This document shows positions 9,289 through 64,000 of a DNA stretch of 64,000 nucleotides, one piece after another. The stretch is from positions 2,356,001 through 2,420,000 of the forward strand of contig NZ_CP014945.1 in NCBI RefSeq assembly GCF_001606025.1, given 5' to 3'. The notes below the pieces were generated by a model. That model was not told where the DNA came from. It saw only the letters and a list, made by a program, of their open reading frames with translations, and did no database searches. The translations under genes and the position numbers were made by a program. This DNA is from Psychrobacter alimentarius. Its GTDB lineage: Bacteria; Pseudomonadota; Gammaproteobacteria; Pseudomonadales; Moraxellaceae. Numbering within the stretch: the stretch's first letter is position 1; each line of letters opens with the position of its first letter.

Positions 9289-9330
9289 AAATGGTTTTTA
9301 TGTGACTCAGATAAAAATCAATTACTAGAA

Positions 9331-12373: not shown

Positions 12374-12540
12374 TTGATCATTCTTCTTGACTGTCTGTCT
12401 TCATCTAGGTAAAGATGGACAGATTATGAATAGAAGGCAATGCTAAAAAATGTCGAGATACACTCTCGATTTATATTACAATGTTATTTTATAAAACGAC
12501 CGTTTGATCCATTATTTGATTTAACTTTAGAGGAATTATC

Positions 12541-12987
12541 ATGGCTGACGCACAACCACAATTGGCATTAGAACGCATTTACGTAAAAGATATGTCACTT
12601 GAAGTACCAGGCGCTGAAGTATTCACCAAAGAGTGGAACCCAGAGCTTGATATCAACCTTTCAAGCAATGCTGAAAAACTTGATGACGATCATTATCAAA
12701 TCATTTTGACAGTAAGCGTTACGGCTAAAAATGCTGATGAAGCTGCATTTATTGCCGAAGTCCATCAAGCGGGGATTTTCTTATTAAAAGATATTCCTGA
12801 AGATCAAATTGGTCAAATTTTGGGTGCATACTGCCCTAACGTTTTATTCCCATATGCTCGTGAAGTCATCAGTGATATCGTGACACGTGGTAGTTTCCCG
12901 CAACTATTGCTTGCACCAGTAAACTTCGATCAAGCATACGCACAAAGCCAACAGCAAGCTCAAGTAGATGCTGAAGGCAATGCTTAA
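12541..12987 (+). CDS. secB: Protein-export chaperone SecB
   Basis: SecB is a tetrameric chaperone that holds preproteins unfolded and delivers them to SecA. The 148-residue protein has the family core [18 protein letters not shown], the EVHQAGIF segment and the diagnostic [18 protein letters not shown], followed by [15 protein letters not shown]. The tail is Gln/Ala-rich. Start context is AGAGGAATTATC. It lies about 170 nt after grxC and ends at a strong terminator. Confidence 0.97.
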
Positions 12988-13032
12988 TTATTGATGTGAG
13001 AATGTATTGACTGTAGCAGTGATACATTTGAC

Positions 13033-13071
13033 AAAAAGCCGTCTACCCATTTGGGTAGGCGGCTTTTTTTT
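13033..13071 (+). terminator. Rho-independent terminator after secB
   Basis: A long GC-rich stem (AAGCCGTCTACCCA with TGGGTAGGCGGCTT, one G-T-type mismatch) is followed by eight Ts. Confidence 0.93.
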
Positions 13072-13122
13072 AGTTATGTTTTGACATTAAATTTGAAAAA
13101 AACTGTCAATGAGCTTTCAATA

Positions 13123-13152
13123 AAAAAAACCCCGACTGTATAAAGTCGAGGT
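13123..13152 (-). terminator. Rho-independent terminator after adk
   Basis: CCCCGACT and AAGTCGAGG pair around a GTATA loop, with a run of Us on the minus-strand product. It lies 35 nt past the adk stop and is back to back with the secB terminator. Confidence 0.85.
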
Positions 13153-13186
13153 CTCATTTTTATGACAGCTGGTATATCGTAGGATA

Positions 13187-13915
<729 letters not shown>

Positions 13916-13994
13916 TTACCTTGTGACTCTACAAACCTCAAGTATTTTCACGATTGCTGTGATAAGTTGCTATGACTTATCTGTTCATATAACG

Positions 13995-14023
13995 TTGTTG
14001 CACGCTCGTTTAACGTGCAACAA
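13995..14023. repeat. Hairpin between the ccm operon and adk
   Basis: Perfect 10-bp arms TTGTTGCACG and CGTGCAACAA flank a 9-nt loop, 33 nt past the ccmI stop. There is no U run, so it may be a processing site or a weak terminator. Confidence 0.55.
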
Positions 14024-14055
14024 GGCATTCGCAATGTGCATTAACAGCAGACATC

Positions 14056-15336: not shown

Positions 15337-15893
15337 TTTTTGTCCTCAAGGCTTGTGGTATCGTGATCATCTTCTTTACCACTATCAGTACGTGATAAGA
15401 GGCGGTCAAGTTGAGCTCTTTCGGCAACAGACAGAGCAGCAGCGGTACTTTCTACCTTTACTCCGTTCTCTCCACTGGCAACAAGCTGACGCCGTTTGCT
15501 TTGCCAAAACCATCCTATCAACAAAACGATGAGCAACAATGGTGGGAAAAACCACAAGACCCATGTTGATGGGCGTACAGGTGGCTTATAGCTGATAAAA
15601 TCACCATAACGCTCCTGCATATAAGAACGAATTTCACCATCACTACGACCATCTTTTACCATATCGTAGGTCTTTTGCTTTAAGTCTTGGGCAATTGGTG
15701 CATCAGAACCTGCAAGGTTTTGATTTTGGCATTTTGGGCAGCGCAGCTCTTCGATAAGACCACGATACTGAGCCTCTTGTTGTTCAGAGTCAAAATCGTA
15801 GACATCAATTGCAGCATAAGTTGTGGCACTCAGCAGGCACGCTATAATTAAGCTTGCCAGCTGTAAGATAATAGGCTTCACATTGGCTTTCAC
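15333..15893 (-). CDS. ccmH: Cytochrome c maturation protein CcmH
   Basis: CcmH is the thiol-disulfide component that keeps the CXXCH cysteines of apocytochrome c reduced for haem attachment. The 186-residue protein has an N-terminal signal peptide or anchor, then the invariant ELRCPKCQNQNLAGSDAPIA with the LRCxxC motif, a three-helix bundle (DLKQKTYDMVKDGRSDGEI), the YGDFISYKPP motif and one transmembrane helix (WVLWFFPPLLLIVLLIGWFW). Only the short CcmH/CcmL-type form is present, with CcmI as a separate gene. It overlaps ccmG and ccmI by 4 nt each. Confidence 0.94.
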   Translation of the reverse strand: MKANVKPIILQLASLIIACLLSATTYAAIDVYDFDSEQQEAQYRGLIEELRCPKCQNQNLAGSDAPIAQDLKQKTYDMVKDGRSDGEIRSYMQERYGDFISYKPPVRPSTWVLWFFPPLLLIVLLIGWFWQSKRRQLVASGENGVKVESTAAALSVAERAQLDRLLSRTDSGKEDDHDTTSLEDKK

Positions 15894-16549
15894 TTACACA
15901 CCTCCCCAATCTGCTTCGTATCTGGGCTGACGTTATTATTATTGGCATCATTAAGTATCATCAGGCAAGGCGCGATTCGACTTTGCCAGTTGCTCTCATT
16001 AATCTCACCAATAATATGTTGACGAATAATCCCTTCACCATCGACAACGAACGTTTCAGGTGCACCTGTCAAGCCTAAATCTAAGGCAAACTGCCCTGAT
16101 AAATCCTGAATCGACATTGAAAACGGATCCCCACCTCGGTTTAGATATCCCAAGGCATCACCAATCTCATCTTTATAGTTGATGCCCACCAGGTTGACAC
16201 CACGTTCTTCTAGCTGCATCAAAAAAGGATGTTCAATCACACAAGTGGGACACCAAGAGCCCCATATATTCATCAAGAAAGGTTTGTCAGGCAAGTTCTC
16301 ATTGGTCATGATACGGCTGGTATCGGATAATAAAGGAAGCTCAAACGCTGGTACTGGACGCTCAAGCGCCGTATTGGTCACAATATCAGTCGGTTGCCCT
16401 AGCCGCATATATAACATGACAATCAAACCAATGAAGACAATCAATGGAATCAAAAACCACAATCTAAGCTGCTTTTTTTTCATGGTTTTAGGGTTATTGA
16501 CCTTATGGTGCCCAGCTTTTTGATCAGAAGAATTGTTTGACGTGCTCAT
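15890..16549 (-). CDS. ccmG: Thiol:disulfide interchange protein CcmG/DsbE
   Basis: CcmG is a membrane-anchored, periplasmic thioredoxin-like reductant in cytochrome c maturation. The 219-residue protein has a cytoplasmic lead (about 30 residues, KMKKKQLR), one transmembrane helix (about 31-47), and a thioredoxin fold with NIWGSWCPTCVIEHPFLMQL, where the active site is WCPTC. The cis-proline segment is LGLTGAPETFVVD, typical for CcmG. It starts 1 nt after the ccmF stop and overlaps the ccmH start by 4 nt. Confidence 0.94.
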   Translation of the reverse strand: MSTSNNSSDQKAGHHKVNNPKTMKKKQLRLWFLIPLIVFIGLIVMLYMRLGQPTDIVTNTALERPVPAFELPLLSDTSRIMTNENLPDKPFLMNIWGSWCPTCVIEHPFLMQLEERGVNLVGINYKDEIGDALGYLNRGGDPFSMSIQDLSGQFALDLGLTGAPETFVVDGEGIIRQHIIGEINESNWQSRIAPCLMILNDANNNNVSPDTKQIGEVCK

Positions 16550-16550
16550 C

Positions 16551-18581
16551 TCAATTGCCTCCCATCTTTGTCACGGGTATTTCAGACTCAGTGACGGGAC
16601 GAGCGCCAGACTTTTCAGGCATGATTTGCATCGGTGTCTTGGTTTTCTTAATACGATAACGATTGTCAATAATACTTAGCAAGGCACCGAACGCCATAAT
16701 CAGCGCACCCAGCCATATCCAACGAATCAGCGGTTTGACGTAAATACGGAACGCCCATTCATTGCTGTTTTCGGCGATAGGCTCACCAAGCGCTACATAT
16801 ACATCACGCAAAAGAGTGGCGTCAATCGCAGCTTCTGTCATCGGCATCATACTGATAATAAAGTTACGTTTTTCAGGATACAAGGTAGTCACCTCTTGAC
16901 CATCTTTGCTAATGGCCACCTCCGCTTGTGTGGCATCAAAGTTACTGCCTTTGACTTCACGGAAACCTTTTACGACAAAATCATAGCCCTGAACATGGAC
17001 ACTATCATTTGGTGCCAATGCCACATCACGCTCAATGCTCAACGTAGTTGTAAAGGCCACACCAATAACAGCAATAATCACACCGATATGCGCTATCTGT
17101 TGACCCCAATAGCTCAGACGTAGTTGACGCAAACCTGTCAAACGACTGGATGCATTTTTGGTCTTGTCTTTAAGATCGACGACCATCCATAGCAGTACCC
17201 AAAAACTGATCGCTAAGGTCACGCCAATATTGAGCATCTCTGATGGACTGACAAAATAGGCAATAATCGCTGCTAATACTAGACTGCTTACTGCGATGAT
17301 CATGCCAGCACCCAAAAGCGGGCGACTGTCTTTTTTCCAGCGAATATTAGACCCCATGCCCATCGCTATCAATAGCAACCAAGTAAGAGGCACAAATAGT
17401 GCATTAAAGTAAGGAGGACCAACTGATACCTGACCCAAATTAAAAGAGTCAGCGATAATGGGATATAGCGTACCAAGTAAAACAACCAAGGTCGCAATCA
17501 GAAGAATGACATTATTAATGACTAAAAATGACTCACGTGAAATCAGCTGATATTGACTTTCAACCGTCAAACGCCAGCCACGTATGGCAAACATCAATAG
17601 GCCGCCCCCGATGATCACACCAAGGATCACTAAGATGACAAGACCACGCGTTGGGTCAGCAGCGAATGAGTGTACGGAGGTAATGACTCCTGAGCGTACT
17701 AAGAAAGTACCAAGCAAACTTAGTGCAAAAGCAAAAATCGCTAGCATGATTGTCCATGCTTTAAATACACCACGCTTTTCAGTGACTGCCAGCGAATGTA
17801 GCAACGCCGTACCTGCCAGCCATGGCATCAAAGAAGCATTTTCTACTGGATCCCAGAACCACCAACCGCCCCAGCCAAGCTCATAATAAGCCCACCACGA
17901 ACCAAGCGCAATACCAACGGTCAAAAAGCCCCAAGCAGCCAATGCCCATGGACGCGACCAGCGAGTCCAGACTGCATCCAAACGCCCTTCCCATAATGCC
18001 GCCATACAAAAAGCAAATGGCACAACTAAGCCCACATAACCCATATAAAGCATGGGCGGATGAATGATCAAACCGAAATCTTGTAATACAGGATTTAAGT
18101 CTGCGCCATCGACAGGCAAATTGGGCAATGTGCGCTCAAATGGCGAAGACGTAAAAATAAGCATCGCAAGCATCATCGCCTGCACGCCAGCTAAAATAAC
18201 CAATACTCGTGCACGCATGGATAATGGTAGACCACGGCTAAAATAAGACACCAAGGCGCACCAAGTCGCCATAATGGTCATCCAAAGCAGTAGGGAGCCT
18301 TCGTGCCCACCCCAAGTGGCCGATAATTTGTAGTACCAAGGCAATAAGGTATTAGAATGTTGAGTGACATAGACTAAGCTAAAGTCATTATAATAAAAGC
18401 CTGCCATCAGCGCAGCAAACGAAGTAATCATGGCAGCAAATTGTGCCCATGCAAGACTTGGCGCAAGACGTTGCCAAGCAACGTGATCACGCATGACACC
18501 AATAGTCGGTAACACCACCTGCAAAATCGCCAACATAAAGGCGGCTAGCAAGGCAAAATAACCCAATTCTGTGATTAACAT
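16551..18581 (-). CDS. ccmF: Haem lyase CcmF
   Basis: CcmF is the integral-membrane haem lyase subunit that attaches haem to apocytochrome c in the periplasm. The 676-residue protein has about 15 hydrophobic segments. The tryptophan-rich WWD signature (LGWGGWWFWDPVENASLMPW) is near residue 235, with conserved His residues flanking it (SATWGGHEGSLLLW near 90, MPWLAGTALLHS). Length and motif order match the family. It is the first gene of a ccmF-G-H-I operon. The upstream ccmA-E genes are absent here, so the maturation pathway is split between loci in this genome. Confidence 0.95.
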   Translation of the reverse strand: MLITELGYFALLAAFMLAILQVVLPTIGVMRDHVAWQRLAPSLAWAQFAAMITSFAALMAGFYYNDFSLVYVTQHSNTLLPWYYKLSATWGGHEGSLLLWMTIMATWCALVSYFSRGLPLSMRARVLVILAGVQAMMLAMLIFTSSPFERTLPNLPVDGADLNPVLQDFGLIIHPPMLYMGYVGLVVPFAFCMAALWEGRLDAVWTRWSRPWALAAWGFLTVGIALGSWWAYYELGWGGWWFWDPVENASLMPWLAGTALLHSLAVTEKRGVFKAWTIMLAIFAFALSLLGTFLVRSGVITSVHSFAADPTRGLVILVILGVIIGGGLLMFAIRGWRLTVESQYQLISRESFLVINNVILLIATLVVLLGTLYPIIADSFNLGQVSVGPPYFNALFVPLTWLLLIAMGMGSNIRWKKDSRPLLGAGMIIAVSSLVLAAIIAYFVSPSEMLNIGVTLAISFWVLLWMVVDLKDKTKNASSRLTGLRQLRLSYWGQQIAHIGVIIAVIGVAFTTTLSIERDVALAPNDSVHVQGYDFVVKGFREVKGSNFDATQAEVAISKDGQEVTTLYPEKRNFIISMMPMTEAAIDATLLRDVYVALGEPIAENSNEWAFRIYVKPLIRWIWLGALIMAFGALLSIIDNRYRIKKTKTPMQIMPEKSGARPVTESEIPVTKMGGN

Positions 18582-18789
18582 ACGGTCTAACCCTGTTTAC
18601 CTTAGTACGGTCATTGTTTATTTTAGGGATTGGTAATTTGGAGTAGTAAAACTGTCCGATATTCGCTATTGCTGTTGACGATGGCCACAGCAATATCAGA
18701 GACTTACAGCAGGGTACATTAGCGTTAACTTGTCACGTTTTTGTATCCACTCTGTATTTGATGTGTGTAAAAAATAAAAAACTTATTGA

Positions 18790-20124
18790 TTATTGCATGG
18801 ATGGAAAAAACACCAAGACAAGATGCAGCCAACCCGCCAAGAATCCTGTTAAGCCCCCTAAAATAATTAGAGTCATCTCATCTTCTCGGAATGCGGGACG
18901 CAATAAGTTTTGAAACTCATTGGGCGTCAATGCACGTATTCGATCACGGAACAGACCAAATATCTTACTGGCACGGCTTTCGTTCAGTTCAGGATCACGC
19001 AGCGGTACCATGGTTGCAATAATAGATTTATCAATAATGGTATTTTTTAATTGACCATATTCTCGGCGACCCAGCCCCACACGCAATGTAGTACTAATGA
19101 CTGGCGACTCTAGTACCTTATAGAGATGCGATTTCATCAAATCTCGCGTCTGTGCAGCACGTTCACCATACATCATCTCATTCATGATATTTTCAAGTGT
19201 GACCAAATCCTTGACGACGATCTCAGCAAAAACCTCAGATACTTCTTCTTGTCGCTTCATAAAACCGCCTTGTAGGCGATACTGTGCGATATGCGGTATC
19301 TGTGGCTTAATAAATGGGAAATGGCGTTGGACAGTAAAAAGCTTTAAATAAGGAATAAAACGCGGTTCGACTGGATTAAACACCATCCAAATAGCGATCC
19401 AATTGGTCAAAAAGCCCCAAATCGCAGCAAAAAACGGTACCGTCCAATGCTGTGGCACCAGCAGAAAGATAAACATCTGAATAATACCGAAAACCAAACC
19501 AATCAAAGCACTGATATGCCAAATAAAATTGATCTCTTTTTGACCCACTTTTAAAAACATATTCACCATCAAACGACGATCACTCTCCATCGTATTGACA
19601 ATCATCTTACGCATATCAACCAAATCTTCGACATGATAAGTCAGGTCAGTCACCAAGGACTGCATAATATTGGGCAATTCTTGATGCGCTTGAGCGTAGA
19701 CACGACGCTTTAGAGCGTAAGGCAGATTGCCCCACAAGGCTGGTGAATGATCCAGCATGATCTCATCAATCAATACCTCAAGATTTTCATCAACCGTATT
19801 GGTAATGAATACCGCCATTTGCTCAGGCTCCATTGCCTGAAAAAACTCATCAAGCGACCCAAGCTTCGATAGCGTCTGATCAACGATGACGCCCGATATT
19901 TTACCAGCCTTACGTGGGACGATACCTTGCCAGCCAATACCCGGTAAACCAAAAAACGGGAAATTTGGAATACGGATACCCCAAAACTTGATGGGATAGA
20001 ACAGCATTTTAAGCGCCATCCATACATGTATCCAAGTAACAAATGCCGTCACTGGTGGGATGGTTAACATGGCAAAAAACTCTGGGTGCTCAGCTATCGT
20101 CTGCCACAATGAAGTTGCATCCAT
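18790..20124 (-). CDS. DUF445 family membrane protein
   Basis: The 444-residue protein has a transmembrane helix near residues 20-45, a long loop, a pair of hydrophobic segments around 205-250 (WHISALIGLVFGIIQMFIFLL and PFFAAIWGFLTNWIAIWMVF are each split by turns), and a final helix at the C-terminus (LIILGGLTGFLAGWLHLVLV). This and the motif TNWIAIWMVFNPVEPRF fit DUF445 (YheB/YjiN-like). The function of the family is unknown. The gene is separate from the ccm operon, with a 208-nt gap between them. Confidence 0.82.
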   Translation of the reverse strand: MDATSLWQTIAEHPEFFAMLTIPPVTAFVTWIHVWMALKMLFYPIKFWGIRIPNFPFFGLPGIGWQGIVPRKAGKISGVIVDQTLSKLGSLDEFFQAMEPEQMAVFITNTVDENLEVLIDEIMLDHSPALWGNLPYALKRRVYAQAHQELPNIMQSLVTDLTYHVEDLVDMRKMIVNTMESDRRLMVNMFLKVGQKEINFIWHISALIGLVFGIIQMFIFLLVPQHWTVPFFAAIWGFLTNWIAIWMVFNPVEPRFIPYLKLFTVQRHFPFIKPQIPHIAQYRLQGGFMKRQEEVSEVFAEIVVKDLVTLENIMNEMMYGERAAQTRDLMKSHLYKVLESPVISTTLRVGLGRREYGQLKNTIIDKSIIATMVPLRDPELNESRASKIFGLFRDRIRALTPNEFQNLLRPAFREDEMTLIILGGLTGFLAGWLHLVLVFFPSMQ

Positions 20125-55200: not shown

Positions 55201-55626
55201 TTCGGTAACGTGAAAACTATTATTGCTAATATGATTCCAGTCTATCAAAGCAATAGTTTGTGAGGTTTTTTTACCGTCGATAAACTCAGTCACGGTCACG
55301 CCATAAAGCATGGCGTTATAAAGCGCCTCGTTTGCTGCCTGCAGCCCTAAGTTCATCGCTGGGTTTAGCTCGTGCATGATTTTATCAATGGCGCTGTCTG
55401 ATAAAGGATGCGCCTGACCTTCAAATGTAAAAGTTTGCTTGGCTAAAAACGCACGCATAATAGGCAATAACACTACTTGGTTGGTGGCCTTATTTGAAGC
55501 CACTTTTGAGCGCATGGCACTGCATTGGCTTGGTGGGATAAATTCGTAGCCCAGCGTGGTGAGCAAGGTTAAGGCAGGGATTTTTGAGCTGAATTCTTCG
55601 GCGAAGTTGATGCTGATATCGGTCAT
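52285..55626 (-). CDS. hsdR: Type I restriction endonuclease subunit HsdR
   Basis: HsdR is the ATP-dependent translocase and nuclease of a type I R-M complex. The start at 55626 (MTDISINFAEEFSSK) gives 1113 residues and is supported by the same start in two upstream fragments. The nuclease domain has the PD-(D/E)xK residues in RPDIVCFVNG...LAVIEAKRPD near residues 170-190. The SF2 helicase has Walker A HTTGSGKSFTMVFF near 355, a DEGHRSQ box and a later QAIARVNRLH motif. The C-terminal helical domain completes the family length. It is the penultimate gene; upstream genes are cargo. Confidence 0.94.
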   Translation of the reverse strand: MTDISINFAEEFSSKIPALTLLTTLGYEFIPPSQCSAMRSKVASNKATNQVVLLPIMRAFLAKQTFTFEGQAHPLSDSAIDKIMHELNPAMNLGLQAANEALYNAMLYGVTVTEFIDGKKTSQTIALIDWNHISNNSFHVTEELVVLNSEGTNSRRPDIVCFVNGLPLAVIEAKRPDSSREWQSTNAQAVSQHIRNQKQKEIPHLFAYSQLLLAVNGNDGLYATCGTPEKFWAKWVEEEISEPEFARLKNQALSPEQIENLFAHRPVSITDEYKSLIAGGDLVVTDQDRLIVSLLQPERLLEMTRLFTLFDKKAGKIVARYQQVFGIKALIERISTFDEKGSREGGVIWHTTGSGKSFTMVFFSKALIWLEKLAKCRVIVVTDRVDLETQLSKTFASGGVLSDRDKSDAMATSGRRLAQQIGHGNERVIFSIINKFGSAVKYDECYNDSPNIIVMVDEGHRSQNGENNIRMAQALPNAAFIAFTGTPLLKDDKTENKFGSIIHSYTMQQAVKDKTVTPLLYEERIPELNTNDQAIDAWFDRITQKLTNDQKTDLKRKFSQKGQIYQVEGRIELIAHDISDHFQNFKQQHLKGQLACDSKASAIRYKIALDKIGKVTSVVAMSSPDTREGHDTVDGESKDIVQNWWQDNVAKEYGGDEKAYTKAIIEAFSQDDGPDIMIVVDKLLTGFDEPKNTVLYIDKPLKQHNLIQAIARVNRLHEKKRFGYLIDYRGILKELDITIEKYQDLAERTQGGFDIEDLKGLYNAMDTEYKQLPRLHSELWAIFSSVKNKQDGQALRQVLAPKMQEIDGRVVDTKLKERDDFYAALTEFSNAMKIALQSASFFEDKSFDSKRDRYKTDLKAFVNLRKQVREDADETIDYDEYEADIRSLLDKHIAGLEVKEAKGVYLVDNLGKNAKPETMSDDEARNQTDKITGRVTKMIEQDLADDPYAQEYFSKLLKQAIADAKAMFDAPVKQYMMFADFEQAVKERDVADIPNSFIDDSGKLNKHAHAYFGLFKYLFDADFLTDRELDNDKLVAYAFEIDKIVKTAVAEYSINPAEIENAINRRLLPMLFADLGIDKAQQLIEAVLKITRLGLSRETKSMRETSSPRAARG
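55561..55626 (-). repeat. 5' segment of hsdR present in three copies (copy A, intact gene)
   Basis: The first 22 hsdR codons recur at 56978-57049 (copy B, 39 nt identical, 55561-55599 equals 56978-57016) and about 58091-58156 (copy C, diverged). In all three the shared sequence stops just after the TTGCTC codons. Copies B and C carry cargo genes beside them. Confidence 0.85.
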
Positions 55627-55658
55627 ATTTGCCCACTTGATAATATTAAAATGAGTCG

Positions 55659-56396
55659 CTACCCTGTAAAAAATGTTTTTGTAGATTTCCAAATTTGTTT
55701 AATATTCATAATTAAGCTGCTATACAAAGCAGGGAAATTGCATACTTCGATCTGACTCTGATATTGGCTGTTTCTAGCTAACTCTTTGTCTATTTCTAGA
55801 GCAAATTTTAAAGACTGAGCTTCTCTCAAAGAAAACATTGCAGAAAATATCATAAGCAACAACAGTATTACGTATGCTTTTAACTTAAAAATTACATCGT
55901 TTAAATCGGTAATACCACTGAACCAGAAAGACATTATTAATACCAGTGCAGCAGATATCATGAGCATTAAAAAACCCGTTATCTTTAAAAAATTTAGAAA
56001 CAGTTTTTCAATGCAGCTTATACTAATAACAGGATTACCATCTATCGTTATAATAAATATATCTGCTCTTTTGAACATTTTCATCGTAAGCTTACCATTC
56101 GAATCAACTCTGAGCTTTAACAATTTTTCTCGAAAAGGTTTGTCCCAACTTATACCTTCGAACCTCTTATACAAACTATTTTCTAGCGATTCTTTAAGAT
56201 AATCAGCACTTCTACCCGTTACAATACCCGCATCGAGCGCCTCCTTTAGCGCTTTACTTTTACGACTAGTTATGTACTGATGAAAGCTAGTAATATCATT
56301 TATTTTATATAAAAAAATTAGAAAAGCGGTCGAGATAACGCCAAATTTTCCTAGTCCTAATAAAGTAGTCACAATTTTAGTTATATCTGGTTCCAC
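55659..56396 (-). CDS. Two-pass-type membrane protein, cargo in the RM locus
   Basis: The start is GTG at 56396, six nt after GGGAG, giving 245 residues. Hydrophobic segments lie near residues 15-30, 135-160 and 170-190 (KITGFLMLMISAALVLIMSF and YVILLLLMIFSAMFSL). The central soluble part (residues 40-120) includes an acidic-basic loop. No family is recognised. It starts 54 nt after the preceding small gene and ends 33 nt before hsdR, in the gap where type I operons carry accessory genes. A toxin or membrane-effector role is possible but unproven. Confidence 0.65.
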   Translation of the reverse strand: MEPDITKIVTTLLGLGKFGVISTAFLIFLYKINDITSFHQYITSRKSKALKEALDAGIVTGRSADYLKESLENSLYKRFEGISWDKPFREKLLKLRVDSNGKLTMKMFKRADIFIITIDGNPVISISCIEKLFLNFLKITGFLMLMISAALVLIMSFWFSGITDLNDVIFKLKAYVILLLLMIFSAMFSLREAQSLKFALEIDKELARNSQYQSQIEVCNFPALYSSLIMNIKQIWKSTKTFFTG

Positions 56397-56450
56397 TGTT
56401 TACTCCCTATCAACCACTTCTTAAAGAACTCCAACCCGACAACTAAAAGC

Positions 56451-56945
56451 TCAGTCATAACTCACATTCAAATTTTTATCAATTTTGAAGCCATCGTAAA
56501 GCGCGACAATTAGTAGCTGTCCATCTTTGATCAAGACTAATATATTCTCTTGATCGACATACGCTCCGTAAGGATTATCTTCGGTGACATACGCTTCGTC
56601 TTCATCTTCGTATAAACCATATGATAAAAATGCTTGGTAATCTCCGCTTTCATGCAGTTGAAAAAACCCACTGTCAGATGCGCCTAAATGTAGACTTGCA
56701 AGCTGTTCTAATAAGCTAGGATCGGTGATAGGTGGCATTAGTGTATCAAATTGCTCAATACCAAATGAGTCCGCATAACCGCTGAAATCTTGGTCAGTTA
56801 AGGGTAGCTCGTAATAAGGATAGGAGACACGAAATGCGAGGTCATACTGTTCGGTATCCTCGTATTCGCTAGCTGAGGCATGCACTAAAGTATTTCCAGC
56901 AGATACTATTAGCACGCTTAGAGATAATAAACGGAATAATGTCAT
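56451..56945 (-). CDS. Small exported protein, cargo in the RM locus
   Basis: The 164-residue protein has a signal peptide (MTLFRLLSLSVLIVSAGNTL, cleavage near VHASA) and a mature part that is very acidic, rich in Tyr, Asp and Glu, with no Cys. No family is recognised. Its start codon overlaps the stop of an upstream hsdR fragment by ATGA, so its translation is probably coupled to that fragment. It is followed by the membrane protein gene 54 nt later, so the two may form a pair. Confidence 0.62.
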   Translation of the reverse strand: MTLFRLLSLSVLIVSAGNTLVHASASEYEDTEQYDLAFRVSYPYYELPLTDQDFSGYADSFGIEQFDTLMPPITDPSLLEQLASLHLGASDSGFFQLHESGDYQAFLSYGLYEDEDEAYVTEDNPYGAYVDQENILVLIKDGQLLIVALYDGFKIDKNLNVSYD

Positions 56946-57049
56946 AGAATTTTTAAATTTATTGACAGTGTTAAAATGAGCAAGGTTAAGGCAGGGATTT
57001 TTGAGCTGAATTCTTCTTGGAAGTTGATACTAGGATTGGAATCGGTCAT
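56942..57049 (-). pseudogene. hsdR 5' fragment (copy B), translationally coupled leader
   Basis: An ATG at 57049 opens 35 codons: MTDSNPSINFQEEFSSKIPA, then LTLLILTLSINLKIL, then TGA. The first 24 match the HsdR start (MTDISINFAEEFSSK); after codon 24 the sequence is unrelated. The stop overlaps the ATG of the small exported protein (56945). The nucleotide match to hsdR is exact for 39 nt, so this copy arose recently. Confidence 0.82.
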
Positions 57050-57368
57050 GCCTGCCGCCTTTTACATAGCGTTTGTTTGGTTATCTTGATTTTAGCTGAT
57101 ACGAACAGAAAAAAGGCATAAAAACATTGCTATTTTTATACGCGCCCCACACTTACCTATTGATAGCCATTTTAGGTTAGTGACCTACTGCATTAACTCA
57201 TCAGTGGTTTTAAGGAGCTGTTGAGTCGACCGTATTCTAATATATCCAAATTTGGACGTTTGATAGTACTTCTCATACGCTAGGGTTAAATAAATATCTG
57301 CAAATATTTTATAATAGCAATCATAATACCCATGAAAACAACAAATAATATTTAATATATATACCGAT
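57050..57368. other. Intergenic region upstream of the BLUF gene
   Basis: 319 nt of AT-rich DNA beside hsdR copy B. A 12-bp palindrome TCCAAATTTGGA lies at 57245-57256. I see no ORF or clear promoter; it must hold the BLUF promoter. Confidence 0.5.
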
Positions 57369-57998
57369 ATGAATATATACAGTCACGACAAACTAGAAAA
57401 ATCTATGCAAGACACGCCTACAAATGCTCTCATCAGATTGATATATATTAGTGATATCAATACCGCTGATAGCTCGGTGTTTGCGCATATACAACATCAC
57501 TCAGAATCTTTTAATAAAGAGAACCATATCGCGGGTTTTTTGTGCAATAACAATGAGAGCTTTTTGCAATGTCTAGAAGGCACAAAGGAGGTTGTCTCCT
57601 CCCTGATGCAAAGAATATTCAAAGACAAAAACCATAAAGATGTGGATGTCGTTTTTTCTAAAAAGATAAGCGGTTATAGCTTTACAGATTGGCGTATGCA
57701 CAGTATTAATCTAAATGATAGTAACTGGAAAAAATTCTCAAATCATACTCAGCTAACTGATATCTCCCCATTCAAACCACAGCATTGGCCTCATTGGTTC
57801 GTCGATCATTTTATCGAGTCCGTAAAAACCATTGATTACTCCAACCTAGATAAAGACCTGATTACCTTTGATAAGCTAGGATATTCCGATGTCCAAAAGA
57901 CGTTGGCCAGTAATAATGTGTTGTTCTATATCTTTTTGAGTGTGCTGATCAGCTCTGCTGTGGCGATCTTGCTGTTTAGATATAATGTCATTGCTTGA
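57369..57998 (+). CDS. BLUF blue-light sensor protein with C-terminal membrane helix
   Basis: BLUF domains bind FAD and respond to blue light. Residues about 20-115 carry all key residues by alignment to AppA from memory: Y26 (LIRLIYISDI), N49 (SFNKENHIAGFL), Q67 (FLQCLEG), W108 and M110 (FTDWRMHS). The domain is therefore likely photoactive. After a linker of about 65 residues a single hydrophobic helix (LFYIFLSVLISSAVAILLF) ends the 209-residue protein. No output enzyme domain is present. It is read opposite to all neighbours and sits between two hsdR fragments. A start at residue 13 is also possible. Confidence 0.82.
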   Translation: MNIYSHDKLEKSMQDTPTNALIRLIYISDINTADSSVFAHIQHHSESFNKENHIAGFLCNNNESFLQCLEGTKEVVSSLMQRIFKDKNHKDVDVVFSKKISGYSFTDWRMHSINLNDSNWKKFSNHTQLTDISPFKPQHWPHWFVDHFIESVKTIDYSNLDKDLITFDKLGYSDVQKTLASNNVLFYIFLSVLISSAVAILLFRYNVIA

Positions 57999-58042
57999 TG
58001 CCATTGCTTAATATCAGTCAGTGCCGATATTAGGGCGTGTCC

Positions 58043-58156
58043 TCAATCTGAACGAGAGCGCCTAAAAGAATTAGATATAGGTACGTTATGGAGCAATATT
58101 AAGATAGGGAGCTTTACACTAAATTCTTCTGTGAAGTTGATACTAGGGTTGGTCAT
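58043..58156 (-). pseudogene. hsdR 5' fragment (copy C)
   Basis: An ATG at 58156 opens 37 codons starting MTNPSINFTEEFSVKLPILI, then LL, and then unrelated codons to TGA at 58043. It matches the HsdR N-terminus (MTDISINFAEEFSSK) to the same breakpoint as copies A and B but is more diverged, so older. Its ATG overlaps the stop of the ADP-ribosyltransferase-like gene by ATGA, the join expected if that gene once preceded an intact hsdR. Confidence 0.8.
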
Positions 58157-58815
58157 ATCTGCCCACCCTGATTACATTGCTCATAATCTAATTTTATTAC
58201 ATCCGATAAGGGCGTAAATCTTGGATTCAAAACGACTTCTCTTTCACCAACTCGCATCCAAAAAATATCAGAATTACTTACAGTAGTTTCGATAACAACT
58301 CGATCTTCTTTATCAAACCCATAGTGATTAAAAGCGAATGCTTTTGCCGTATCGAAATCAGTAGTCCAAGACTGCCTATCCCTATAACTTTTGTCCTCAA
58401 ATGACTCTAAAGAACATCCTCTGTATACAGTCAGCTTGGCTGGTTGTTCAGGATAACTATCTATAGGCGAAGATATTATTACTATTGGAAACCAGGCATC
58501 ACCACCGCGACTAGGGTGTGCATAAAGTTCCTGATGTAGCTCTAATCCTTTATATTTATTAGAAACATTAAAACAATCAAACATTACCTGCATAAATTCA
58601 TTTTCTTTATCACTACCTTCTTCGTAGTAATGTGTATCACCGTCAAATGAACCCTCTTTTTTGGAATCAGTTAGCATGTTTAAGAGCAAGTTATTTGCCA
58701 TGCTTTTAAAACTATCATCAAAACTATTATATTTATCGAAGAAATGATCAATCTCAATCTGCATCTCATCCTTTAAGCAATTTAGCACTGACGGTGGAAG
58801 CTCAACTTTATTCAT
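58153..58815 (-). CDS. ADP-ribosyltransferase-like protein (R-S-ExE type), cargo in the RM locus
   Basis: The 220-residue protein has a soluble helical N-terminal half and a C-terminal ART-like half. In that half YRGC (R132), QSWTTD (S149-W-T-T) and GEREVVLNP (E191-x-E193) occur in order and at plausible spacing, as in arginine-type ADP-ribosyltransferases. This suggests NAD-dependent modification of a protein or nucleic acid. The assignment rests on motifs alone. The gene follows the dGTPase gene on the same strand after a terminator-like hairpin, and its stop overlaps an hsdR fragment start. An anti-phage effector role is inferred from its place in the RM locus. Confidence 0.6.
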   Translation of the reverse strand: MNKVELPPSVLNCLKDEMQIEIDHFFDKYNSFDDSFKSMANNLLLNMLTDSKKEGSFDGDTHYYEEGSDKENEFMQVMFDCFNVSNKYKGLELHQELYAHPSRGGDAWFPIVIISSPIDSYPEQPAKLTVYRGCSLESFEDKSYRDRQSWTTDFDTAKAFAFNHYGFDKEDRVVIETTVSNSDIFWMRVGEREVVLNPRFTPLSDVIKLDYEQCNQGGQI

Positions 58816-58993: not shown

Positions 58994-60448
58994 TTATAGT
59001 CTATCAAATATAGAACCTTTGTTAGGAGTGAAAAACTTCTCATAAAACTTAGTTGCGTAGTCATCAGTCATACCTGCAATGAAATCGCAAATAACTCTCA
59101 TTTGTGCATGTTCTCTAGCTTCATCTACCACACTCTTTTCTTCTTGCTCTAACTTCTCTATAACAGATTGTAATAAGTATTTTTTTGGATTTTTCTCGGC
59201 ATCTTGACTGGCTTGCGTCCATCTTTCTTTAGTAGACTTTGGCAAAAACCTTTCAGGATCTTCTGAAAGCACTTGAAATAACTCAATAATTAATTTCTGA
59301 CCTTTGAACTCAAGCTGTTGAACATTTTCATCTTTTATCACAATATCATATACAAGATTACAGATAAGTTCTCTAAGCTTTTCAATTTCTTCTTCAAGCT
59401 TAACTTCAAGGTACAGCAAAGGGTCAGTACAACCTGAACCATTATTTACAATAACAATGCTAGTAATCATTAAATTAATTAAAGAGCCAATTGCATTTTT
59501 TCTCTCATGACTCTTGCTACTAAAAAGCTGCTTTGTTATTGAGGCAAATTCTAACTCGCTTCTCTCAATTTTATTTGCTTTATTGTCCAACAAGTAATGT
59601 TTTTTTTCGAAACGCTTTTCCCACTGCTTTTCATTAATCATTCCTAAGGAAAGTGCATCTTCTAAGTCGTGTAAGCTATAAGAAATATTATCTGCCAGAT
59701 TCATAATTGTACAATCTAGTGATTTAAATCTAGTTTTTCTATGTTCACCGACTTTTTTCTCTTTAAGTTTGAAAAAATTCTTTTGATCTTCTTTGCTAAA
59801 AGCTTTAAAAATGAAGCTGACAATATCTCTGTCAACATCGTAATAGCACTTAGGCGGTTTTTGAGTATCTGCTTTGAATAACCAATATGGTAATTCAGGG
59901 TTTTCCTTAACTTTATAAAAACTCTCATCAACTAATTCATGATATGAAACAGGGTACTTCAAAACGCCTAATAGCATTCGTCTTGTAGGGTTCAGGCCAT
60001 ACTCATCAGTATATTTTTCTATCTTCCCAAGTATTCTCAATGTCTGACCGTTACCTTCGAATCCCCCATACTTTCTCATACAGTAATTAAGAGCTACTTC
60101 ACCACCATGTCCAAAAGGAGGATGTCCAATATCATGTGCTAAACAAATAGCTGTAATCAAAGACATATCAGGTAAGTACTCTTTGTACTCTGAAAACCTC
60201 TCAGATTCATTGATATACTGAACAATACCTCTACCAATTTGCGCCACTTCCATAGAGTGAGTTAATCGAGTGCGGTAAAAATCACTTTCTCCTAACCCCA
60301 ATACTTGTGTTTTAGATTGTAGACGCCTAAAAGCAGCAGAATGTATTAGTCTGGCTTCATCTCTATCATATTCACTACGAACTTCATCATAGCGCTTTGG
60401 TGGCTCCTGTCTTCTTTCTTCCATCGCCTTAATATCGATCATATACAT
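58994..60448 (-). CDS. HD-domain dGTP triphosphohydrolase (dGTPase), cargo in the RM locus
   Basis: dGTPases split dGTP to deoxyguanosine and triphosphate. The 484-residue protein has RLTHSMEVAQIGRGIVQY (H64) and AHDIGHPPFGHGGEVALNY (H105-D106, conserved Gly-rich loop), and LADNISYSLHDLEDALSLG (metal Asp), the HD metal set. The opening RSEYDRDEARLIHSAAFRRL and KTQVLG are also typical. Its neighbours are restriction genes, and dGTPases are established anti-phage enzymes that deplete dGTP, so a defence role is more likely here than housekeeping. Two in-frame ATGs (60448, 60442) are possible starts. Confidence 0.9.
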   Translation of the reverse strand: MYMIDIKAMEERRQEPPKRYDEVRSEYDRDEARLIHSAAFRRLQSKTQVLGLGESDFYRTRLTHSMEVAQIGRGIVQYINESERFSEYKEYLPDMSLITAICLAHDIGHPPFGHGGEVALNYCMRKYGGFEGNGQTLRILGKIEKYTDEYGLNPTRRMLLGVLKYPVSYHELVDESFYKVKENPELPYWLFKADTQKPPKCYYDVDRDIVSFIFKAFSKEDQKNFFKLKEKKVGEHRKTRFKSLDCTIMNLADNISYSLHDLEDALSLGMINEKQWEKRFEKKHYLLDNKANKIERSELEFASITKQLFSSKSHERKNAIGSLINLMITSIVIVNNGSGCTDPLLYLEVKLEEEIEKLRELICNLVYDIVIKDENVQQLEFKGQKLIIELFQVLSEDPERFLPKSTKERWTQASQDAEKNPKKYLLQSVIEKLEQEEKSVVDEAREHAQMRVICDFIAGMTDDYATKFYEKFFTPNKGSIFDRL

Positions 60449-60516
60449 TACTTCTTTTAATTAGAATTCACTAAAGTATCAGCTAAATCATCAATTTAAG
60501 CAAACTTTCGTCTATA

Positions 60517-60672
60517 TCAAACCACCACCCGCTTCTTCCCCATCAACAACACCTGCATCAGCGCCTTCTTCTCTTGCCGCAAATCAGCCAATTGCTGCTC
60601 AAGCAATTCAATCTCTTTATCGGCATTGGTTAAGACAGTCGCGACTTTTTGTTGTTCTTTTAGGGCGTGCAG
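60517..60672 (-). pseudogene. hsdS 3' fragment
   Basis: About 150 nt encode the C-terminal 45 or so residues of an HsdS (LHALKEQQKVATVLTNADKE then a Glu/Gln/Leu coiled region and LLMGKKRVVV, stop TGA). The intact gene ends similarly (ATVLTNADKEIELLEQQLAD ... LLTGKKRVVVDGY). Nucleotide identity is over 90% by eye across ~110 nt (62041-62150 against 60540-60650). It lies between the nuclease-like gene and the dGTPase gene. Confidence 0.85.
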
Positions 60673-60717: not shown

Positions 60718-61869
60718 TTATTCAGCCGATGCTGGACGGTATTTTAACTCTAAATCATTTAAATGGCGCATTAACTCAATTATTTTGGCAGACAGATCAT
60801 CTAAATCAAACGTTTCAAATGCCCAAGATATGCCCCATAAAGTATTGTTTGTTTCATACCAAATTTTATTATCCAAGTTTAACCATGAATCACCAATTAA
60901 ATCTTTAAATTTCTCTGTCAACTCATCCGATTGCTTGCCAATATGTAAATTAATCTTATGCGAAACATCATTATCACTTGCCTTCATCCATAACACGATA
61001 TCAGAGCCTGTTGTCCAATTAAGATTAGTGAACTTAATGACAGGCTCATAGTCATACCACTTAGCGTGTTTCACTTTACATTCAAAATTTTCTAGGTCAC
61101 TGGCATTTAAGTCTGATGAAATTCTGGTTCCAATTTTATGCATCAGATTGTTATAGATATAGTCGCTTAATTGAGCAAACTCATTCAAGTTTTCAGTTAA
61201 AAAAGAAATTTCGTCTTTATTAATTGCGGTCATGGTATTTAAGCCTTTTAAATGTAGTAAGAACTCTCTGGCGAACAAAGTCCATTTGTTATAAGGATTA
61301 TTAAACATAGTTTGTGATAACTCTATTTCGATATGTTGAACCAGCTCGTTATATGAGATGCCATGCCAACCTCCTACTACAAGATCTACGCTCACATTAC
61401 CATCAAGGCAAAGCACCAGTTTAATGAGCGTCTTTGGAGCTGAGTGTTGAGTTTTCTTACTAATACGTTCATTACCAAAGGCTGTATATTCATCAAAAGG
61501 ATTATTTTGATGGTGGTAGATTTTACATTCAATCACTATTAACGCAGTGTCAGTTTCTACGAGTAAATCAATACGCTTGCCATTTTGCGTAACCACTTCT
61601 GTCTCTACACTCTCAAAAGCACCTAAAGAGGATAGTATGTTTTTTTTAGCGATAGCAGACTCTAGACCTCTAAAGAAGCTGTGACCCAAACCATGATGGT
61701 TGGCTGAATTTAAAAAGAAGCTGAGCAGTTCAGTCGTTGGGTTTTCAAAATGCCCTCTTGTGCCAATATCAAATAAATTCAGCTCTTCCTCCGTAAAGTC
61801 TAATGCTCTAAATTTGTCTATAAGGGCTTTAAACCTTTTAAGATGATAGGGAGCTTGCACTGATGTCAT
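60718..61869 (-). CDS. PD-(D/E)XK nuclease family protein, cargo in the RM locus
   Basis: The 383-residue protein has the PD-(D/E)xK fold pattern in its first 130 residues: ENPTTELLSFFLNSA (E47), GKRIDLLVETDTALIVIECK (D101, E114, K116) and then HHQNNPFDEY. This matches the PDDEXK_4-type family. The remaining ~230 residues are helical to mixed, with three or more Trp, and no further known domain is visible. Start context is AAGGAATTACA. It lies between intact hsdS and a broken hsdS copy, so its arrival is probably tied to that duplication. Expected to be a DNA or RNA nuclease in defence. Confidence 0.78.
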   Translation of the reverse strand: MTSVQAPYHLKRFKALIDKFRALDFTEEELNLFDIGTRGHFENPTTELLSFFLNSANHHGLGHSFFRGLESAIAKKNILSSLGAFESVETEVVTQNGKRIDLLVETDTALIVIECKIYHHQNNPFDEYTAFGNERISKKTQHSAPKTLIKLVLCLDGNVSVDLVVGGWHGISYNELVQHIEIELSQTMFNNPYNKWTLFAREFLLHLKGLNTMTAINKDEISFLTENLNEFAQLSDYIYNNLMHKIGTRISSDLNASDLENFECKVKHAKWYDYEPVIKFTNLNWTTGSDIVLWMKASDNDVSHKINLHIGKQSDELTEKFKDLIGDSWLNLDNKIWYETNNTLWGISWAFETFDLDDLSAKIIELMRHLNDLELKYRPASAE

Positions 61870-62008: not shown

Positions 62009-63208
62009 TCAGTATCCATCAACAACCACCCGCTTCTTACCCGTCAACAACACCTGCATCAGCGCCTTCTTCTCTTGCTGCAAATCAGCCAATTGCTGCT
62101 CAAGCAACTCGATTTCTTTATCGGCATTGGTTAAGACGGTGGCAATTTTGTTTTGCTCATTTGATGAAGGGAAGTGAACTGGAATCTTTTCGCATACAGC
62201 TTTATTGATTTTAGGTTGAGCCGATCCTGAGTTAAACTTTCTATAATCGAGACTTTCGAGATATATACACAAAAACTCAGAGTTTTTATCTTTATTTGCT
62301 TTCATGACATGTGCATGATTATTAACCCAGATTTTTCCCGAAACCATAAACACATGAGGAACTACTCTTGATAGAATGTTTTCGCCGTCCTCACCTAACA
62401 AAATTAATTCATCGTCAAAAATATAGTCGTTTACATAGTCAATAATGCCTGTTGCACCAAAATAGGGATATTGACCTTGAATATCAGCTCTATCTTCTTG
62501 CTTAATAGGTTTGCGCATTCCATTTAAGAATGTCACACAGTCTTTCAAAGGAGCAGTTTCCCACTCACCCTCAAACCGTTCTCCCTTGTCATCTAGCAAA
62601 CGCTTTTTACCCGTTAGTAATTGCTGCATTAAGGCTTTTTTCTGCTGGGTGCTGTTATTAATCAAACGCTCGGTGGTGCTAATCGCTTTATCCCAAGTGG
62701 ATAGGATGTTGGCGATTTTTTGTTGTTCCAATACAGGAGCTAGAGGAAATTCTACCGAATAAAAATCCTTATGATTTAAGTCAGGAATAGTGCTAGCACC
62801 AGCTTTAGTTAAAATTAAATGTTGGACTCTGGGTGAACGTAGATAGTTCACTAAAAAAGTTTTGTCAATTTTATCTTTATCAAAGTCCATCAAGAAAAAA
62901 TTATTATGAAACGCACCTTCGACATCCGTGACAACAATGCCTGTGTTACCAGTACGTGTCATCAACACATCATCTCTATTACAAATAACACGTTGTGAAG
63001 GGGCTTCTACATATTCACGATCTTGATCCGTCTTTTTAATCGACTGGATAGTTATATATTCTTTTGACGTACTCGTTGGAGCTTTTAGTCGTTCAGAGAT
63101 AGCAATTTGTAAACCTTGCCTAACTTTCATAACCTCAGAAAGTCTAACGCGTTTCCAATCTTTAGGGATTCCCCCTAGTTGTGAGGGTTTCAGTAAATTA
63201 GGCACCAT
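62009..63208 (-). CDS. hsdS: Type I restriction specificity subunit HsdS
   Basis: HsdS sets the DNA target of the methylase and nuclease. The 399-residue protein has two target-recognition domains, each followed by a conserved coiled helix: residues about 1-160 and 215-345 are the variable TRDs, and the conserved arms are VLEQQKIANILSTWDKAIST to TGKKRL, and NEQNKIATVLTNADKEIELL to TGKKRVVV. The arms share a repeated QQKIA/KALMQ-LLTGKKR pattern, the half-repeats of HsdS. The start overlaps the hsdM stop by 11 nt. Its 3' end is duplicated downstream at 60517-60672. Confidence 0.94.
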   Translation of the reverse strand: MVPNLLKPSQLGGIPKDWKRVRLSEVMKVRQGLQIAISERLKAPTSTSKEYITIQSIKKTDQDREYVEAPSQRVICNRDDVLMTRTGNTGIVVTDVEGAFHNNFFLMDFDKDKIDKTFLVNYLRSPRVQHLILTKAGASTIPDLNHKDFYSVEFPLAPVLEQQKIANILSTWDKAISTTERLINNSTQQKKALMQQLLTGKKRLLDDKGERFEGEWETAPLKDCVTFLNGMRKPIKQEDRADIQGQYPYFGATGIIDYVNDYIFDDELILLGEDGENILSRVVPHVFMVSGKIWVNNHAHVMKANKDKNSEFLCIYLESLDYRKFNSGSAQPKINKAVCEKIPVHFPSSNEQNKIATVLTNADKEIELLEQQLADLQQEKKALMQVLLTGKKRVVVDGY

Positions 63209-64000
63209 AACCCAACTCCTTTAAAAACCCTGCCATCTCAGTCTCTAAACTATCTAACTCAGCCTTTAACTCAAGACGCTCAGACCGCACTGCATCCAAA
63301 TCAATCTCCGCCTCTTCCTCAAACGTATCGACATAGCGTGGAATATTTAGGTTAAAATCGTTATCCGCTATCTCATCAAAGCTCGATAAATACGCGTATT
63401 TATCGACACTTTCTCGCGCTTTATAGGTCTCAATGACTTTAGCAATATTGTCTTCAGTCAACTGGTTTTGGTTTTTACCTGATTTAAACTCATTGCTGGC
63501 ATCAATAAACAGTACCGTGTCATCAGTTTTGTTCTTTTTAAACAGTAGAATAGCCGCTGGAATACCTGTCCCGAAGAATAGCTTTTCGGGTAAACCAATC
63601 ACCGTATCGAGCAAGTTTTCTTCGATCAGTTGCTGACGGATTTTGCCTTCGCTTGACGCACGGAATAGCACGCCATGCGGTACGACCACACCCATGCGGC
63701 CGCCTTGTTTTGATGAAGAGGCAGGTTTGAGCGTTTCGATCATATGACTGATAAAGGCATAATCGCCCTTGGTCTTGGGCGGTACACCGCGATGAAAGCG
63801 ACCGTAGGGATCGCTGCTGGCATCGTCATGTCCCCATTTATCCAGTGAAAACGGCGGGTTGGCGGTCACCACATCAAACTGTAATAAGTGCTTGCCGTCA
63901 CTACCTAATAGCAGCGGATTACGAATGGTATCGCCCCACTCGATACGGTGGTTGTCCTCGCCGTGTAGGAACATATTCATCTTGGCCAGTGCCCATGTTG
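63198..64000 (-). CDS. hsdM: Type I restriction methyltransferase subunit HsdM (5' end outside window)
   Basis: HsdM methylates adenine N6 in the target site. About 267 C-terminal codons are in the window; the reading frame continues past 64000 (TWALAKMNMFLHGED is in frame at the edge). Catalytic motif IV is FDVVTANPPFSLDKWG, an N6-adenine NPPF motif. Later family features are YAFISHMIETLKP, GRMGVVVPHGVLFRASSEGK and LPEKLFFGTGIPAAILLF. The N-terminal helical domain and SAM motif I lie beyond the window. Co-transcribed with hsdS. Confidence 0.95.
   Translation of the reverse strand, partial: TWALAKMNMFLHGEDNHRIEWGDTIRNPLLLGSDGKHLLQFDVVTANPPFSLDKWGHDDASSDPYGRFHRGVPPKTKGDYAFISHMIETLKPASSSKQGGRMGVVVPHGVLFRASSEGKIRQQLIEENLLDTVIGLPEKLFFGTGIPAAILLFKKNKTDDTVLFIDASNEFKSGKNQNQLTEDNIAKVIETYKARESVDKYAYLSSFDEIADNDFNLNIPRYVDTFEEEAEIDLDAVRSERLELKAELDSLETEMAGFLKELGYGA

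Follow-up and report, generated by a model that had tools for sequence, protein, structure and literature searches.

In Psychrobacter, the interval between hsdS and hsdR of the type I restriction operon is a hotspot for putative anti-phage cargo. Between the cargo genes lie short stubs of the operon's own genes: the start of hsdR (R'), the tail of hsdS (S'), or the two fused (R'S'). We think it fairly probable that these fragments are neutral scars of additive recombination, with one junction probably re-used as a homology adaptor.

Some of the Psychrobacter seams can still be read and bear on how defence islands grow. They point to the gene sets that came together, to growth by addition and not by replacement, and to the ends of the operon's own genes as the seams. 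A seam common to relatives gives a hint of the route by which a new defence can join the operon while older ones stay.

The locus and its scars

The window (the whole stretch of 64,000 nucleotides of Psychrobacter alimentarius DNA analysed) contains one such operon. From hsdS to hsdR the order is: hsdS; the PDC-S26 nuclease gene; an hsdS stub; the genes for a dGTPase and an ADP-ribosyltransferase-like protein; hsdR fragment C; the BLUF gene; hsdR fragment B; p164 and p245; and hsdR itself (Table 1). Fragments B and C, along with the intact start (copy A), were noted originally as three copies of the hsdR 5' end. A repeat search recovered all three as one family at the positions in Table 1, and confirmed the 39 identical nt common to copies A and B.

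Table 1. Features of the hsd locus in the window.
Feature	Coordinates	Strand	Evidence or remark
hsdR, type I restriction subunit, 1113 aa	52285..55626	-	PADLOC REase_I E 0; Pfam HSDR_N 1.6e-43
Copy A, first codons of intact hsdR	55561-55626	-	
19-nt imperfect direct repeat, copy 1	55637..55655		just upstream of hsdR
p245, cargo, cluster c13	55659..56396	-	function unassigned; no Pfam/PADLOC match
p164, cargo, cluster c12	56451..56945	-	function unassigned; no Pfam/PADLOC match; N-terminus signal-like by eye
19-nt imperfect direct repeat, copy 2	56962..56980		overlaps end of fragment B
Fragment B, hsdR 5' scar (R')	56978..57049	-	
hsdR promoter-region copy	57051..57126	-	upstream of fragment B; profile match 47.5 bits, best shuffled 10.4
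BLUF-domain protein, cargo, cluster c5	57369..57998	+	antiparallel to the rest; Pfam BLUF 3.7e-23
Fragment C, hsdR 5' scar (R')	58091..58156	-	ATG overlaps stop of 220-aa gene
220-aa cargo protein, cluster c4	58153..58815	-	putative ADP-ribosyltransferase-like; no Pfam/PADLOC match
dGTPase, cluster c3	58994..60448	-	PADLOC dGTPase 4.4e-150
Duplicated hsdS 3' end (S' scar)	60515..60661	-	89% identity over 142 nt to the intact hsdS of the window
PDC-S26 candidate defence nuclease, PDDEXK_4, cluster c2	60718..61869	-	PADLOC 2.3e-154; Pfam 1.2e-12
hsdS, specificity subunit, intact	62009..63208	-	PADLOC 6.6e-93; Pfam Methylase_S 3.5e-39
hsdM 3' part, runs beyond window	63198..64000	-	Pfam N6_Mtase 8.2e-68 on 63198-63980

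Both fragments are clearly hsdR. Fragment B matches the hsdR start with E 1.8e-17 in a whole-genome search, and fragment C with E 2e-8 within a panel of 45 loci. A profile built from 42 intact hsdR starts scores B at 56 bits and C at 32 bits; ten shuffles of every interval gave at most 8.3 bits. The homology of B and C ends at the same TTGCTC boundary, as had been claimed for the window (B runs one nt further). The tails beyond it have no hsdR or hsdS match better than chance (shuffle p 0.32-1.0), and the same tail test was positive in five scars of relatives (p<0.001).

Two further pieces of the operon lie in the window: a copy of the hsdR promoter region, retained beside fragment B, and a duplicated hsdS 3' end, a scar that the first reading had overlooked. 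The p164-p245 block is bracketed by a 19-nt imperfect repeat (16 of 19 positions identical; none of 400 shuffles equally good). The repeat copy at B shares CTCA with hsdR codons 22-23, which resembles a microhomology joint. Repeat searches at the C and S' seams of the window gave no significant repeat.

A modular cargo site

All 36 complete hsdS-hsdR intervals from Psychrobacter relatives are filled; they span 932-10286 nt and hold 53 cargo clusters. Their contents are largely known or candidate anti-phage genes, as predicted from family membership, and PADLOC matched 17 of the 26 clusters scanned, some of them weakly. Among the window's own cargo, PDC-S26 and the dGTPase fall into known or candidate defence families by PADLOC; p164, p245, and the 220-aa protein have no match. 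The last, with YRG, SWT, and ExE invariant across four homologues, may be ADP-ribosyltransferase-like, going by motif only.

Eight cargo modules occur alone as well as in composites. For example, p245 is the sole cargo in locus L033, BLUF in L080, and PDC-S26 in L073; p164 directly follows hsdS in L024 and L040. Since modules occur in both settings, the window looks like four simple hsdS-hsdR intervals concatenated in a row. The modular cargo site proposed originally is supported: the cargo next to hsdR 5' fragments differs among relatives. The proposal had set against itself a plain tandem duplication without cargo differences, and that case does not fit. Ordinary tandem duplication of the operon ends, with later decay and no connection to the cargo, is very improbable; L028 does have the hsdS 3' end in tandem array, but the modules between copies differ by genome and occur alone elsewhere.

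Where the seams break

Interval stubs come only from the gene ends that border cargo. In 43 stretches, all nine hsdR-derived blastn matches in intervals fall within hsdR nt 1-104, and all 16 plus-strand hsdM/hsdS-derived matches fall within the last 164 nt of hsdS. Longer hsdR pieces, about 68 and 72 codons, occur in L037 and L078, loci without an hsdM match. In an origin test, the S' scars score between the central hsdS repeat and the hsdS C terminus.

The break points are neither random nor all alike. Seams may retain the hsdR promoter region and no hsdR codons (L071, L082, L084, L085, L096, and L099), may end at hsdR codon 14 (L071), or may consist of hsdS only, with scattered start points. 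The TTGCTC boundary (codon 22) was observed for fragments B and C of the window and nowhere else. The expectation of a same-codon breakpoint across strains therefore fails for TTGCTC, but a recurrent boundary does exist, near hsdR codon 30.

Scars also decay. The c0/c11 scar survives almost complete in L082, has decayed in L085, and is missing from L081 and L084. This suggests that other islands may share the same origin, no longer visibly.

Such variety would fit homology-facilitated illegitimate recombination, in which a resident locus gains DNA through a homologous arm on one side and a non-homologous joint on the other (PMC3240628). Each seam might then be an independent illegitimate joint, those near gene ends surviving since they spare both cargo sets and hsdR and leave little dead DNA. 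The varied hsdR end points (promoter only, codon 14, codon 22 twice, codon about 30), the scattered starts of the hsdS-only stubs, and the CTCA at fragment B are all points in its favour. As a complete account we consider it rather doubtful, given the recurrent junction described below.

The R'S' junction

In R'S', hsdR codons 1 to about 30 continue in frame into roughly the last dozen codons of hsdS. The spacing is 6 nt in all nine loci measured, which represent seven contexts, all outside the window. Because it is identical in seven contexts, the genus-wide fixed point lies near hsdR codon 30, not at TTGCTC. Independent events would not be expected to give one joint seven times, and homology-facilitated illegitimate recombination alone does not predict it. 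Nor was useful microhomology seen by eye at the joint. R'S' is not common to all seams: those of the window, and the promoter-only, codon-14, and hsdS-only seams, are without it.

The codon after the joint CAG is non-Val in 7/7 R'S' contexts, as against Val in 35/41 intact hsdS tails, a comparison devised after viewing the sequences and one in which QQ tails are present in 6/41 intact hsdS. This argues that the R'S' core was not copied from most present-day hsdS tails.

Does the junction have a function? The fusion is in frame in all nine loci measured, two of the seven contexts (L030 and the second L082 scar) keep both start and open frame, and fragment B overlaps the p164 start as ATGA. These features might suggest a working mini-gene, such as a translational relay between neighbouring cargo sets. 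Against this, stops interrupt R'S' in L027, L028, and the first L082 scar; starts are lost in L096-L098; and the junction is decayed in L083 and L085 and gone from L081 and L084. A functional mini-ORF was therefore set aside as very improbable.

Alternatively, R'S' could act like an attachment site, with cargo circles closed as R'/S' integrating at hsdR or hsdS. The junction is invariant, and in L097 and L098 it is accompanied by the hsdR promoter region and stands apart from all hsd genes. Yet no recombinase or integrase was found (Pfam, PADLOC) among the 26 of 53 cargo clusters scanned, no core repeat common to both parent sites was seen by eye, and other seams do not use the R'S' site. A site-specific or circular-cassette route thus appears quite improbable, and the attachment role proposed originally for the hsdR start is likewise not borne out by the clusters scanned.

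A model of additive recombination

The sequences show directly what the fragments are, that within intervals they are restricted to gene ends, that modules recur, that the junction spacing is constant, and that scars decay and are lost. In the additive model, an incoming hsd allele (hsdS-Y-hsdR) would recombine by homology in hsdR, or in hsdM/hsdS. Its other side would be joined close to the gene end bordering the resident cargo X, so that Y is added and X is kept. What remains at the seam would be an hsdR stub behind X, an hsdS stub before Y, or both, subject to later decay. R'S' most likely arose a single time and later served again as a short adaptor for homology, its R' part pairing with a resident hsdR start and its S' part with an hsdS tail. 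We infer the order of these events, the uptake of linear DNA, and the re-use of one junction.

The high similarity of hsdM and hsdR from locus to locus makes homologous arms available. There is a ComEC-type gene; the same profile also matches in E. coli, so this is weak evidence of competence. Scar hsdR arms resemble the native junction of the preceding gene: the best same-neighbour allele ranks first in three of six cases and within the top four in all six. Two observations in the window count against this: the arm of fragment B is closest to L023/L072 and not to BLUF-neighbour alleles, and for fragment C one other-neighbour allele scores higher. The R'S' adaptor is also not supported for the window itself, because B and C lack S' and end at codon 22. 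Finally, the L027 junction is far less decayed than those of L096 or L083, which fits re-use only if arms are refreshed.

A bolder version makes the Psychrobacter operon a defence-cassette accumulator: a dedicated or sequence-guided route of recombination would make or re-use the fixed seam and so concatenate whole hsdS-cargo-hsdR intervals instead of replacing them. We regard this as unlikely.

Related systems

Type I restriction operons with defence genes inside them are already known, and are reportedly the subject of a 2024 preprint by Payne et al. In Campylobacter, the rlo genes are variable ORFs that lie between hsdS and hsdR, as does prrC of E. coli; as in Psychrobacter, variable genes occupy the same place in the operon. 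Neither is known to have seams of hsdR and hsdS ends. Integron gene-cassette arrays also stack modules in series with a recurring short sequence between them, much like the Psychrobacter composites. Unlike integrons, the scanned Psychrobacter cargo showed no integrase, the seams derive from the ends of protein-coding genes and decay, and a recurring seam is absent from most modules.

DarTG2 sits between hsdS and hsdR in EPEC, a site termed a potential recombination hotspot (PMC12255303), and in Vibrio cholerae the defence genes TgvAB likewise lie within a type I restriction operon (PMC11411939). Like the Psychrobacter locus, both put extra anti-phage genes inside an hsd operon. Psychrobacter differs in stacking several modules in one interval, with hsdR 5' and hsdS 3' stubs between them and one seam of fixed geometry in the genus. 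Homology-facilitated illegitimate recombination fits the variable Psychrobacter seams (PMC3240628). A literature search with subscription journals mostly outside its scope found no earlier report of hsdR/hsdS stubs or of a fixed seam.

Distribution of R'S'

R'S' instances were detected by protein query; a degenerate DNA pattern gave 0/105 genomes, but was too strict and missed known scars as well. In other genera, a second hsdR-start match was sought in 65 of 80 named-genome loci. This blunt test, which missed the decayed scar of L112 (the contig of L083), gave two matches: L136, with E 0.01, and L109, a duplicate entry for the Psychrobacter locus L071. Among 348 genomes of the family, ten from one other genus match, each via a full-length frame (at least 1093 aa). 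Since the other-genus matches among these family genomes are all full-length frames, R'S' is seen only in Psychrobacter, and its signature provides a simple search handle.

Cargo between hsdS and hsdR

The window's minus-strand operon runs hsdM, hsdS, cargo (extra genes), hsdR. Scars, the stubs that lie between modules, set apart four cargo blocks: a PDC-S26 nuclease (PADLOC, 2.3e-154); a dGTPase (PADLOC, 4.4e-150) with a 220-residue protein; a BLUF protein (Pfam, 3.7e-23); and proteins p164 and p245. Pfam and PADLOC gave no family match for p164, p245 or the 220-residue protein.

Defence genes placed between hsdS and hsdR are already described in PMC12255303 and PMC11411939, the former of which remarks on the site as a possible recombination hotspot. 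Our literature search found no report of hsdR or hsdS stubs as seams, nor of a fixed junction between them. The evidence for seams and modules is all sequence-based.

Positions of the features discussed (relatives' loci, L-numbers, in oriented coordinates)
Feature	Position	Strand	Remark
hsdM		-	upstream of hsdS
hsdS	63208-62009	-	downstream of hsdM
hsdR	55626-52285	-	downstream of the cargo
Fragment B	56978-57049		repeat of the ~22 first hsdR codons
Fragment C	58091-58156		repeat of the ~22 first hsdR codons
hsdS 3'-end duplicate	60515-60661		89% identity to the window's own hsdS across 142 nt
19-nt imperfect direct repeat	55637-55655 and 56962-56980		flanks the p164-p245 block
BLUF gene	57369-57998		antiparallel cargo
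220-residue protein gene	58153-58815		ART-like
L025 interval	5077-15364		10.3 kb
L028 array	16025-19111		repeated hsdS 3' ends
L037 remnant	10862-15604		about 68 hsdR codons
L078 remnant	14007-15172		about 72 hsdR codons
L097 orphan	about 9990-10080		R'S' with hsdR promoter region
L098 orphan	about 10370-10460		R'S' with hsdR promoter region

Of 105 Psychrobacter genomes, 42 contain a DNA match to the hsdR start (E up to 1e-5) and 48 a protein match (E up to 0.001). All 45 places from the DNA search that stood for separate loci formed the panel. The hsdS-hsdR interval was complete within the fetched stretch at 36 of these, and every one was filled (932 to 10286 nt). Counting ORFs from 60 residues upwards, their cargo comprises 112, grouped into 53 clusters; some of the short ones are certainly spurious, and one cluster, c34, is itself in part a scar. 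Five intervals fetched later (L099-L103) also contain cargo matches. PADLOC matched 17 of the 26 clusters scanned, some weakly, among them Septu, Pycsar, CBASS cyclase with effector, dCTP deaminase, AbiD, AbiZ, and PDC-S02, S20, S26 and S42. Pfam added a HicB-like antitoxin. The sample comprises one genome per species, so no seam was observed while forming; several loci are cut by draft contig ends.

Eight modules were found both as sole cargo and inside composites: c1, c2 (S26), dGTPase (accompanied by the 220-residue protein in L035), BLUF, c7, Septu, p245 and Pycsar. The window combines S26 (alone in L073), dGTPase with the 220-residue protein (as in L035), BLUF (alone in L080) and p164/p245 (p245 stands alone in L033). 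Likewise, L082 joins an L084-like interval to the c7 one seen in L026, L032 and L089.

Gene ends that form seams

When 36 hsdR and 37 hsdM/hsdS regions were searched against 43 stretches, all nine hsdR-derived matches fell inside hsdR nt 1-104. Of the hsdM/hsdS-derived matches, the 16 on the plus strand were all within the terminal 164 nt of hsdS, and the four on the minus strand, all in L025, were to a stretch farther upstream. The hsdR limit is the firmer, because hsdR is conserved; hsdS pieces might extend farther up unseen, that part of hsdS being highly variable among alleles.

The stubs differ in extent. The hsdR piece ends at codon 14 in L071 and at codon 22 twice in the window; L071, L082, L084, L085, L096 and L099 have scars of the hsdR promoter region only. 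Stubs of hsdS alone, with scattered start points, occur in the window, L024, L036, L040, L100 and L103, and as arrays in L027/L028. The L028 array has a hairpin-like spacer and a period of about 300 nt. At L037 and L078 the hsdR pieces are longer, and the search gave no hsdM match; these loci resemble relics of hsd systems since lost, the first with S26-like cargo, the second with an hsdS stub.

Fragment B shares 39 identical nt with the intact hsdR start. Such fragments (SIGNIFICANCE) were tested with a profile built from 42 intact hsdR starts, in 37 intervals, of which 36 are complete and one is truncated where its contig stops. Ten stretches were found, among them B (56 bits) and C (32 bits); the lowest scored 9.2 (L085), and the top of ten shuffled sets 8.3. 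The original prediction placed the end of all three copies at TTGCTC. This boundary holds for the window, since beyond it B and C match neither hsdR nor hsdS above chance. In contrast, the tails of five scars in relatives do match one or the other (p<0.001).

A fixed junction

In L027, L028, L030, L083, L085 and L096-L098, and in the second scar of L082, hsdR runs to about codon 30 and continues in frame into an hsdS tail. In an ungapped scan, the hsdS joint of this fusion, R'S', falls at a constant 6 nt past one particular hsdR Phe codon at nine of nine loci; the scan was not blind, stretches having been excised by motif, and single core matches were weak in L083 (p 0.34 and 0.17) and L085 (0.016 and 0.29). 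L027/L028 and L097/L098 each form a pair, leaving seven contexts. The first L082 scar, without the codons needed, was counted with L085.

Could R'S' be a working mini-gene? Start and open frame are both intact in two of seven contexts (L030, second L082 scar). Stops interrupt L027, L028 and the first L082 scar; the start is lost in L096, L097 and L098; and the L083 and L085 copies show decay. Between clusters c0 and c11, L082 has an almost whole scar and L085 a decayed one, while L081 and L084 have none. Stops, lost starts, decay and loss thus argue against this role.

In L097 and L098, R'S' stands with the hsdR promoter region and no hsd protein match in about 20 kb. By eye, its L097 neighbours resemble genes for a peroxiredoxin, small secreted proteins and the cell wall. 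These orphans may have been left behind by a lost locus, or may indicate that the junction is mobile.

Did the junction arise once? In all seven R'S' contexts the joint CAG is followed by a codon other than Val, whereas 35 of the 41 intact hsdS tails that could be read have Val at this place (Fisher 2e-5; when only codons no more than one step away from CAA or CAG are counted, six of seven contexts, p 5e-4), in a test picked after the sequences had been inspected. This contrast favours a single old junction, re-used. Alternatively, several events possibly drew on an old pool of non-Val hsdS alleles. The scar codons' score falls between the central and C-terminal hsdS repeats. The L027 seam is fresh whereas others are decayed, which one origin would fit only if the arms were refreshed.

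Formation of seams

In the simplest route, incoming hsd DNA would recombine through one long homologous arm, with the other joint at the border of resident cargo. Given an existing R'S', cross-overs between R' and hsdR, or S' and hsdS, could bring the adjoining module into another locus. For six scars, the best hsdR allele with the same upstream neighbour ranked 1, 1, 1, 2, 4 and 4 among 41-45 hsdR starts. Window B is a poor case (nearest, L023 and L072), and at C some other allele outscores the same-neighbour one. On the hsdS side, resemblance to the next module was judged by eye only (for example, L030 beside L073).

The copies of the 19-nt repeat agree at 16 of 19 positions, a match equalled in 0 of 400 shuffles. 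CTCA is common to the repeat and hsdR codons 22-23, as would fit a putative microhomology joint at B. No such flanking repeat was found at the seam of C or at that of the duplicated hsdS 3' end. No recombinase was seen in the scanned cargo (26 of 53 clusters); a ComEC-type gene is present, by a profile that matches E. coli too.

Further observations on cargo

BLUF, a blue-light sensor, recurs as antiparallel cargo in the window, L027, L071, L080, L029 and L095.

The 220-residue protein has invariant YRG, SWT and ExE across four homologues, which we take to be the R-S-E signature of ADP-ribosyltransferases (ART); solved structures gave no convincing match (best E 0.09). Its gene sits behind dGTPase in the window and L035, behind dCTP deaminase in L088, and behind PDC-S42 in L031. 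A two-gene pairing with nucleotide-depleting enzymes is possible.

In L025, an efflux-pump-like gene set, recognized by eye, has a copy of ORF cluster c21 on either side and looks like a mobile-element insertion.
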